Shown here piece by piece: positions 4,572-7,533 of a stretch of DNA of 64,000 nucleotides; the first letter of the stretch is position 1, and every line of letters begins with the position of its first letter. The notes beneath the pieces were generated by a model that was given only the letters and a program-made list of their open reading frames with translations, was not told where the DNA came from and searched no databases. Source of the stretch: Bacteroidota bacterium (lineage in GTDB: Bacteria > Bacteroidota > Ignavibacteria > UBA10030 > UBA6906); contig JAHBUR010000016.1 in the NCBI GenBank assembly GCA_019637975.1, forward strand, positions 1 to 64,000. The letters are read 5' to 3'. The translations under genes were made by a program, and so were the position numbers.

Positions 4572-4795
4572 TGAGTATGACAAAACTGAATGGGCTTGGG
4601 GGTGAAAAAAATCTATCCAAAGCATGACAGATATACAATCAGGGTGGGTTAAATGAGAGTTAAATGATTTTAATTGCTAAGGATTTTGTGCGAAGTGGAA
4701 CAGGAAATGCCAATTCGTCACGCCTTCGGGTGGAAGGGGTGTGTGACAAAAAGTGAGAGGGAGGGAGAGGCGATTCCTATCGTCCGATGGAGTCG

Positions 4796-4814
4796 GTTTT
4801 CCGATTCGGAAAAC
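4796..4814. repeat. Perfect palindrome of the GTAG...CTAC kind
   Basis: GTTTTCC and GGAAAAC form a 7-bp stem around GATTC. The outer sequence continues CGCCCCTAC to base 4821, so the reverse strand reads GTAGGGGCG then the stem. No T-tract follows, so it is not a typical terminator. It resembles the palindromes at 4851-4877 and 39036-39060. Confidence 0.6.
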
Positions 4815-4850
4815 GCCCCTACGGTTGAAAGCTTCAGGTTTTAAGCTGGA

Positions 4851-4877
4851 GTAGAACGGATCGCCGATCCGTTCTAC
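4851..4877. repeat. Perfect 12-bp-arm palindrome
   Basis: GTAGAACGGATC, 3-base spacer GCC, then GATCCGTTCTAC: all 12 bases pair. It begins with GTAG and ends with CTAC like the other intergenic palindromes of the window. No T-tract follows. Confidence 0.75.
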
Positions 4878-4888
4878 AGAAGCTCGCG

Positions 4889-4945
4889 GTCACGGCGGCC
4901 GTGTCCAATCGGTGGCTGTGATGATTGTTGGGGTGTTGCTGTCAC
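4889..4945. repeat. Left copy of an imperfect direct repeat
   Basis: Shares the 11-mer TGTCCAATCGG and the end TTGCTGTCAC/ATGCTGTCAC, with similar bases between, with 6672-6729. The two copies flank the T9SS gene at 5025-6630. Its last bases overlap the -35 region of the promoter at 4936, so part of the similarity could be functional. Confidence 0.4.
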
Positions 4946-4964
4946 GTCAAGTACTTTGTATCTT
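4936..4964 (+). promoter_or_regulatory. Probable sigma-70 promoter of the T9SS surface protein
   Basis: TTGCTG (4936-4941), 17-bp spacer, TATCTT (4959-4964), with TTTG directly before the -10. This is the layout found before several other genes in the window. It leaves a leader of about 50 nt carrying AAGGAGG before the ATG at 5025. Confidence 0.5.
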
Positions 4965-5024
4965 GGAAACGAAAACTGCTCTCTCACATAATCTCTTCAC
5001 GCATTCATCGCGAAGGAGGCCACC

Positions 5025-6630
5025 ATGAGATATCACCTTGCATTTCTGTTGCTGGTCACTCTGGCGGTTGGGAGTTCTGCCCAACAATTTGAATGGGCAA
5101 ATGTCCACCCCCTCGTCCTTACGTCAAATTACAACACGGTGCGGAACGTCCTCACTCTTGACACCGCGGACAATCCTGTCTCCGGGCGGCTTGTGCGAAC
5201 GGTATCGGGCAACTTCGGCGAATCTGTGATTGAGAAACTCAATACGTCCGGAACCACGATCTTTTCGGACACCCTCTTTGGCAAAGTCTTTCTGCAACAC
5301 CTTACATCCGACAACAACAATAACCTGATTGTCGCCGGCCTGTTCCGGGACACGATTCGCGTCGATACCGCCATGCGAACACTTCCTTCGTCGAACCTGG
5401 TTCATAGCTTCATTATGAAACTCGATCCTGATGGAAGATTGGTATGGTTGAGAGACATGACGCAGACAAATCCGATCGTCAAGGAGATTTTTTCTTTGAA
5501 GTCCGACAGGGATAACAACATCTGGGCGGCGACTTCACCGGGTTTCCCTACTTCGTATGTGATGAAGCTGGATGGAAATGGAAATGAAGTCGCCTCGTTC
5601 CAGCAGATCAATGCCCGTATCATATCAAGCCTGGCAATTGATGCTGAGGGTAATGTTTGGGCTGCCGGTTCCACGTTCGATGGCAGCCACTCGTTCAATG
5701 GATTGCAAGTCACGGCTCCCTACCCGTACAACATCTATGTCGTACGGTATTCACCGAGCGGAGCGGCCCCTTTCGTGCGGTTCGTTCAGGATATCACACT
5801 CCCGTCTCCCCTTCTTGCTGCAACAGGTCGAGATGTGATCATGGGGGGGGAGACTTCTTGCGCCCACATCGTTCGGCGGGCTTCCGGCACACGGCCCGCG
5901 CTGGGTGTATGACTTGTATTCGACAAGGATCGATTCGAGCGGATCATTCGTCTGGCTCACTGAGGTCCCGTTTGAGGTTGGAGGTGACGCCGGTCCTGGT
6001 GAAGGGCCGTTCCTCGCAACGAGTCCCGATGGTTCAGTCATTGCCACTGGGTTCACTCGGGGAACTTTGAACTGGGGAAACGGGGTGGTCACGCAAGCGC
6101 AAAGCACAACGGACATTCTCGTGATCAACCATTCCTTTTCTGATGGGACAGTGCGGTGGGCGAAGACGGCCGGAGGCGTGTACTACAACAGGGGAGATGC
6201 CGTTGCCATTGATCGCCGCGGAGCGATCTACGTTGCCGGCATGGTGGGAGTGAATGCCCGCTTCGACTCACTTCAGTTCACCGGGGAAGAGATTAACACC
6301 TTCATTGCGAGAATCGGTCCCGGCGGAGCTACATCGGTTGGTGATGAGCCACAGCCGTACGAGTTTTCTTTGCATCAGAATTACCCGAATCCGTTCAACC
6401 CCACGACAACAATTACATTCAGCATTCCCGTCGGGATGGGGCAAGCCCCGTCAATACTGAAGGTTTATGATCTGCTCGGAAGGGAAGTGGCAACGTTGGT
6501 GAACGGGCAGCGGAATCCGGGAATGTACAAGGTCACTTGGAATGCGGAAGGCGCCGCCAGCGGTGTGTACATTTGCCGGTTAACTACAGGCGGCTTAACG
6601 GCAACACGGAAGCTTTTGCTGGTTCGCTGA
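5025..6630 (+). pseudogene. Frameshifted secreted protein with T9SS C-terminal sorting domain
   Basis: Two abutting reading frames make one protein of about 534 residues. The first (5025-5912) has a signal peptide (MRYHLAFLLLVTLAVGSSAQ) and repeats of a beta-propeller-like pattern (FIMKLDPDGRLVW, YVMKLDGNGNEV, WAAGSTFDG), as in outer-surface SBBP/beta-propeller proteins. The second continues the same repeats (GPRWVYDLYSTRIDSSGSFVW) and ends with QNYPNPFNPTTTITFSIP and VYDLLGREVATLV, the T9SS sorting domain. Frames switch at a run of eight G (5843-5850): removing one G joins ATG GGG GGG AGA and restores one frame. The upstream frame alone would make a protein without the sorting domain. Either phase-variable, decayed or a sequencing error. 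It has its own promoter and a good ribosome site. Confidence 0.8.
5843..5850 (+). repeat. Homopolymer of eight G at the frameshift
   Basis: G8 inside the coding region, exactly where the reading frame changes. G7 would give the full-length protein. Such tracts are typical slipped-strand mispairing sites. Confidence 0.85.
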
Positions 6631-6671
6631 AGAATATTGCGGGTTTGCGGCGTTCGTTCTTAAACTGGGTC

Positions 6672-6729
6672 GTCATGGCATCGATGTCCAATCGGCAGGC
6701 CGTGACGACTAAAGCGATGATGCTGTCAC
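6672..6729. repeat. Right copy of an imperfect direct repeat
   Basis: Partner of 4889-4945: GTCATGGC, TGTCCAATCGG, GGCCGTGACGA and ATGCTGTCAC correspond in order to the left copy with one gap. It runs into the inverted-repeat element at 6723-6759. Confidence 0.4.
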
Positions 6730-6759
6730 AGATCGCAAGCTGTGCATGTTTGCTGTGAC
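6723..6759. repeat. CTGTCAC-N19-TTTGCTGTGAC element next to a stop codon
   Basis: CTGTCAC, 19 bases, TTTGCTGTGAC; the same two motifs with the same spacing occur at 10597-10633. Here it touches the stop codon (6760-6762) of the minus-strand gene. The arms GTCAC/GTGAC can pair. Confidence 0.5.
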
Positions 6760-7389
6760 TCAAGCCGTCAATTTTTCCTTAATGATCCTCAGGCACAGCA
6801 CAATCTGTTTCTTTGCGATATCGCCCTGCTTAATGACAACGTTGAGTACTTTCTCCTTCCGTTCTGGGCTGCCGACTGAACTCGGATTGCAACAGGCATG
6901 GACATATTTTTCAAATATGAAATGGTATTGTCTTATCGTTGCATAGGTAGTTGAAAGCGAACCCAATAGGTCGGGATCATTTAGCCACTGGAGTTCTCCC
7001 CCATCAGAGAATGCATTCCATGATTCTAGCCGAACTGGAAAGAAGTTGTCAAGAACATCCTTGTGGAATTCGTTGATCGCATTTTGGTTCTCATTAAGTT
7101 CCGCGTCCAGCAAACTTAGGATCTTCTTGACACGCGCATTTGTTTCCCTTTTTCGCTCGCTCTCGCTTCTCAAGCGAGCCATCCGATCAAGCCATAGTGC
7201 AATGGGGAACCCCAAAGCAACGCCAAATATAGTGGAAAGGAGATTGGATAGAAAATCTGCACAGAATGCTTGATCGAACACATCTACCTCGTTTGTGCTA
7301 GCTAACTTTCGGGGGCGTCGTTTTGATGAGCTGGGCGGCCGCCTCATGGACTCAAATTGTATTTTTCTCTCACGGCGCGCAGGGTCCAC
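6760..7389 (-). CDS. Unknown membrane-anchored helical protein
   Basis: Not recognised. The 209-residue product (GTG start at 7389; ATG at 7347 is a possible alternative) has a basic N-terminus, one clear membrane segment (FLSNLLSTIFGVALGFPIALWL, about residues 46-67), then a charged helix likely to form a coiled coil (RLRSESERKRETNARVKKIL) and a soluble helical domain. It lies alone on the minus strand between plus-strand genes. Its upstream promoter (7425-7453) matches that of the other minus-strand insert (12575-12603), and its stop touches a repeat shared with that insert. Likely an acquired accessory gene; function unknown. Confidence 0.65.
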   Translation of the reverse strand: MDPARRERKIQFESMRRPPSSSKRRPRKLASTNEVDVFDQAFCADFLSNLLSTIFGVALGFPIALWLDRMARLRSESERKRETNARVKKILSLLDAELNENQNAINEFHKDVLDNFFPVRLESWNAFSDGGELQWLNDPDLLGSLSTTYATIRQYHFIFEKYVHACCNPSSVGSPERKEKVLNVVIKQGDIAKKQIVLCLRIIKEKLTA

Positions 7390-7424
7390 GTTTGCCCCGA
7401 CAGTCCGAGAAAAACTGCCCCTTC

Positions 7425-7453
7425 ACTCTACCAAATCCCACCTCCAAAGTCAA
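7425..7453 (-). promoter_or_regulatory. Promoter of unknown gene, shared with 12575-12603
   Basis: On the minus strand: TTGACT, 17-bp spacer ending GGTGGGATTTGG, TAGAGT. The last 12 spacer bases and both hexamers are identical to those upstream of the gene at 11880-12485, beyond what a promoter consensus requires. Confidence 0.6.
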
Positions 7454-7533
7454 GACGGAACTGCACATCACCGCCTCCCCTTTAGTTTCACCGAAAATAC
7501 AATTACATTGGCTGCACAAAATCCCCCACAACC

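Follow-up and report, generated by a model that had tools for sequence, protein, structure and literature searches.

An eight-guanine run at the frame switch of a split, predicted T9SS cargo gene in a Bacteroidota genome

Two adjacent open reading frames in a 64,000-nucleotide stretch of a Bacteroidota contig (hereafter the window) raise the question of whether a signal-peptide-like start and a type IX secretion (T9SS) sorting domain that stand in different frames belong to one protein, and of what put one out of frame with the other at a run of eight guanines. A sequence-only reading of the window had proposed a phase-variable, adhesin-like surface protein, caught in its OFF state. The TGA codons that bound the two frames require the frame change to fall in 5839-5909: the sorting-domain frame opens at 5839, after TGA 5836-5838, and closes with TGA 6628-6630, and frame 0 ends at TGA 5910-5912, 295 codons from ATG 5025. 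The C-terminal half contains a GTG at 5905; no start codon in it shows signs of being used. Codon bias, scored in 120-base bins, is strong in both halves and follows frame 0 in every bin through 5745 and, from bin 5865 onward, the other frame, except in the last bin (6585), which places the change between bins 5745 and 5865. Among 395 genomes of the phylum, the N-terminal half had one match besides itself, a single open frame in genome G418 (31% identical), and, at E 1e-6, none in the 99 further genomes of the 100 searched as relatives; three weak contig matches (L041-L043) reach 27-36% over parts. The G418 protein comprises 522 residues in one frame and extends, as judged by eye, from a signal-like start to a sorting-type tail. 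When it was aligned to the window by tblastn, residues 7-281 matched frame 0 (5037-5840) and residues 287-486 the frame after it (5854-6489), and these two collinear pieces (joint E 6e-48) confine the switch to 5841-5853, that is, to the G8 run. The odds that a random 13-base interval would hold the only G8 of 64 kb are about 1e-4 by our own arithmetic, made after the fact; the coincidence of frame switch and run is not due to chance. As read from the sequence, the two frames together make up one protein, interrupted at the run, as had been suggested earlier and as the tblastn alignment, a propeller-blade profile and codon bias all indicate (Table 1). The earlier figure for the restored protein was also right, since one G fewer gives an uninterrupted protein of about 534 residues.

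Table 1. Positions of the split gene, its surroundings and two further split T9SS genes of the genus (window coordinates unless another sequence is named)
Feature	Position	Strand	Basis or remark
Segment present here but lacking from the collinear position in G001 (same genus)	4767-7480		Contains the complete split gene plus a minus-strand ORF of 209 aa
Shine-Dalgarno-like AAGGAGG	5013-5019	+	5 bases upstream of ATG 5025; read directly
N-terminal half: signal-peptide-like start and propeller blades, 295 aa, TGA 5910-5912	5025-5912	+	ORF, PF07494, blade profile, G418 homologue
G8 run at the frame switch; encodes the blade's glycine pair	5843-5850	+	Run count, blade profile, homologue tblastn
C-terminal half, next frame: remainder of the split blade, two further blades, T9SS sorting domain	5839-6630	+	TIGR04183, PF18962, blade profile, homologue
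T9SS type A sorting domain	6382-6618	+	Profile 45.1 bits vs cut-off 23
G9 run of the split T9SS gene of G002	C176:7984-7992		L149, stretch G002:C176:5500-13233
Split T9SS propeller gene of this genome, L086 (G000:C23:34500-40000)	2097-2169 of L086	-	Between-frame split, no long homopolymer

The sorting domain of the C-terminal half lies above the curated cut-offs of both models (TIGR04183, 4.5e-11; PF18962, 2.1e-7), and a hydrophobic start resembling a signal peptide (by eye) lies on the N-terminal half, which is the arrangement of a T9SS type A protein except that here the two signals stand in different frames. At least 150 sorting-domain frames in the genome (150 scored of 231 candidates) imply that the host probably possesses a T9SS. 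The N-terminal half matches the propeller family PF07494, and a blade profile derived from 31 blades matched outside the split gene places, weaker pieces aside, two clear blades in the first half (residues 96-142 and 203-248) and two in the second. A partial blade starts exactly at the run (5848) with model position 13, positions 1-12 being supplied, by eye, from frame 0; because this blade is split at G8, the run encodes glycines of a propeller blade. Propeller blades and the sorting domain were the only domains found, and the label adhesin-like thus finds no support. The loss of the sorting domain foreseen for the present copy follows from its position in the other frame: the product would be left without its sorting tail and roughly half of its blades, and is probably an exported, untethered and non-functional truncated propeller of 295 residues.

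In the split gene the repeat lies inside the frame and its length sets the frame, as in a simple-repeat phase-variable gene, and the copy is interrupted where the G418 homologue is intact, as in a frameshift pseudogene. There is no second stop or shift in the split gene and its codon bias is kept, suggesting that the break is recent at most; strong codon bias on both sides of a frame change located at the G8 leaves either a recent break or an artefact. Homopolymers are classic error sites, the assembly consists of 68 contigs, and normal codon bias without a second lesion would also be seen if the organism's gene were intact and the run length a sequencing, assembly or consensus error. This is the main rival to our preferred reading, and we regard it as a serious but rather unlikely one, because no other homopolymer frameshift was found in the real genes of the window when these were compared with G001, the nearest species of the genus. 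In that comparison, made with 67 mapped G001 frames no shorter than 150 codons, 62 keep a single frame across more than 70% of their length and three fall short of that share without a split; the two that are split overlap at 28.3-29.0 kb on opposite strands, in a stretch of low or mixed codon bias. Conversely, of 74 window frames 67 keep a single frame and six are split in G001, three of them (24.8-26.1, 46.8-47.5 and 15.2-15.6 kb) mostly antisense to a real gene as judged by codon bias. The 13 other runs of at least eight G or C that lie in intact frames of the genome also argue against error. A mixed population might likewise lie behind the assembled run length. Additionally, the present sequence could yield some full-length protein by programmed frameshifting or transcriptional slippage, given that the run could slip in transcription or translation and that codon bias is kept in both frames; the run is not conserved, however, and the G418 homologue is one open frame without it, so we consider recoding very improbable.

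Phase variation would make the G8 a contingency locus that switches attachment through the sorting tail on and off. The tract lies in a surface-protein gene whose frame switches exactly at the run, and with eight Gs it passes the cut-off of 7 or more given in a Campylobacter study, although it falls below the cut-off of 9 in a Neisseria survey of tracts (PMC6321876, PMC5953494). The run is the only one of at least eight G or C in the window, where dinucleotide shuffles average 1.2, and is therefore unremarkable in itself; the G/C runs of the window fall smoothly in number from 53 of length 5 to 14 of 6, 5 of 7 and 1 of 8. Across the 4.25-Mb genome there are 27 runs of at least eight, 17 of eight and 10 of nine with none longer, against 98 of exactly seven (derived from 162 matches and the listing of longer runs). 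This total shows no excess of long tracts and is smaller than expected from the shuffles (about 1.2 per 64 kb), and the steep fall-off in run length has no peak at 9-10, where Campylobacter tracts are reported to peak, being in excess there (PMC6321876). The step from 17 G8 to 10 G9 is nevertheless a slower fall-off than that from G7 to G8 and counts against an ordinary frameshift.

Sorting of the 27 runs by codon bias and translation placed 13 in intact frames, one in a broken frame (the split gene) and 13 in intergenic, leader or undecided positions, so that 13 of 14 coding tracts are intact. The intact frames include at least three T9SS proteins, along with genes that, from their translations, we take to be MotA-, NadB-, CcmF-, MnhG- and YbgF-like. 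MutS1 is present at full length, and the tract lies some 272 codons into the gene, far from its start; both, like the absence of a tract from the G418 homologue, weigh against switching. Rarity of runs, the missing 9-10 peak, the 13 intact frames, a length below nine and MutS1 speak against a contingency system and not against rare slippage. The codon-bias scan flagged three further runs as splits, which we rejected: one is in frame within a CcmF-like protein by its translation (L048), one falls where two different genes overlap (L117) and one lies near the start of an RsmB-like gene (L063). In a separate observation, two paralogous ORFs, presumably AraC-like (L054 and L055; G000:C7, 47447-47455 and 50593-50601), each carry a G9 close to the C-terminal end in a shared sequence context, and run length there decides the presence of a tail of about 26 residues.

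One result in favor of switching comes from G002, another species of the genus, in which an unrelated T9SS gene is split into a 472-codon N half and a 186-codon C half that carries the sorting domain (PF18962, 1.1e-10). On the reversed L149 stretch, comparison with an intact tandem paralogue puts the switch within 5239-5254, around a G9 that occupies 5241-5249, and the homologues of this gene listed from other genomes have no stops inside the match, most of them with an open frame that would accommodate the full protein. Across the three genomes, two genes are thus split at a long G-run, both of them T9SS cargo; no further one was found among the 31 runs of G001 and the other seven of G002, some intergenic and one-sided cases apart. 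A G16 in G002 (C301:11077-11092, L099) lies 24 bases from a contig end and was treated as a probable assembly artefact. A second T9SS gene split exactly at a G9 is more than expected if the two events were unrelated and counts against an ordinary frameshift. Even so, we judge it unlikely that the present G8 is a contingency locus caught OFF, and less likely still that long G-runs in T9SS cargo genes of the genus act as slow surface-attachment switches. In that reading, a run ahead of the sorting domain would determine whether the protein is anchored or lost, and the split genes of this genome (G8) and of G002 (G9) would be two cargo proteins caught OFF.

T9SS genes of the genus also break without long runs. 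At least 13 sorting-domain frames of this genome (150 scored of 231 candidates) sit in open frames of 376 codons or fewer, in a survey that would miss splits with a longer C half; of the 12 besides the split gene itself, one, at G000:C23:36006, is the C half of a T9SS propeller gene whose two frames part within a 73-base overlap that has no G-run longer than five, and the other 11 begin, as judged by eye, with a signal-like or plausible N terminus of their own. In G001, a T9SS gene at C24:2890 likewise appears broken, with no long run. The breaks at G000:C23 and G001:C24 indicate that T9SS genes in this genus are disrupted by ordinary frameshifts.

The surroundings of the split gene suggest that its loss is likely tolerated, since the gene is accessory and absent from G001. 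In that species the flanks are collinear (87% and 83% DNA identity beside the junction) and a 2.7-kb block is missing; no target-site duplication was seen at 4767-7480, and no second copy of the gene exists in its own genome. With the segment absent from G001, there is no near-relative allele to show a change in run length, and the genome collections searched yielded no near relatives with different tract lengths. Relatives lacking a G-tract at this site had been named as evidence against phase variation: the one full-length homologue, in G418, has no run at the corresponding site, a weak indication from a sequence that is AT-rich and distant (about 28-31% identical), and G001 has no gene to compare. 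The proposal of phase variation gains from the G002 gene and loses from the homologue, the lack of enrichment or a length peak, the 13 of 14 intact tracts and MutS1. An imperfect palindromic repeat pair, each copy hairpin-capable, flanks the split gene at 4889-4945 and 6672-6729, 1783-1784 bases apart. As the boundary of a mobile cassette the pair was rejected, the third match in the genome lying in unrelated sequence and none occurring in G001 or G002.

We consider the likeliest single cause, at close to an even chance, to be an ordinary frameshift, caused by slippage at a mutational hot spot of an accessory and dispensable surface-protein gene. The G8 would have arisen from the glycine codons of a propeller blade and become a hot spot for replication slippage, where a net change of one base, or its modulo-3 equivalent, would have put the sorting-domain half out of frame. 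Such a lesion could, in principle, revert.

Comparison to known systems shows both likeness and difference. Like the phase-variable genes of Campylobacter and Neisseria, the split gene is of surface type and has an in-frame poly-G whose frame decides the product (PMC6321876, PMC5953494); unlike them, it has G8 only, without enrichment or a 9-10 peak, in a run away from the start and with a length known from one genome. In the C-terminal switching of Helicobacter canadensis, a run deep in the frame likewise changes only the C-terminal part (PMC2823697), but there all tracts varied in reads, whereas the present run is read from an assembly and its shift removes the whole sorting domain. Listeria inlA offers a parallel in which a frameshift at a run inactivates a surface-protein gene, reversibly in principle, although that run is a poly-A at the 5′-end and the change occurs in a number of strains rather than in one genome (PMC2831843).

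Should a simple frameshift or an error underlie the break, the finding concerns annotation only, with two ORFs to be recorded as one gene. Literature titles and abstract openings yielded no case of homopolymer phase variation of T9SS cargo. If the run does vary in length in real populations, the locus would represent homopolymer switching of a T9SS cargo protein.
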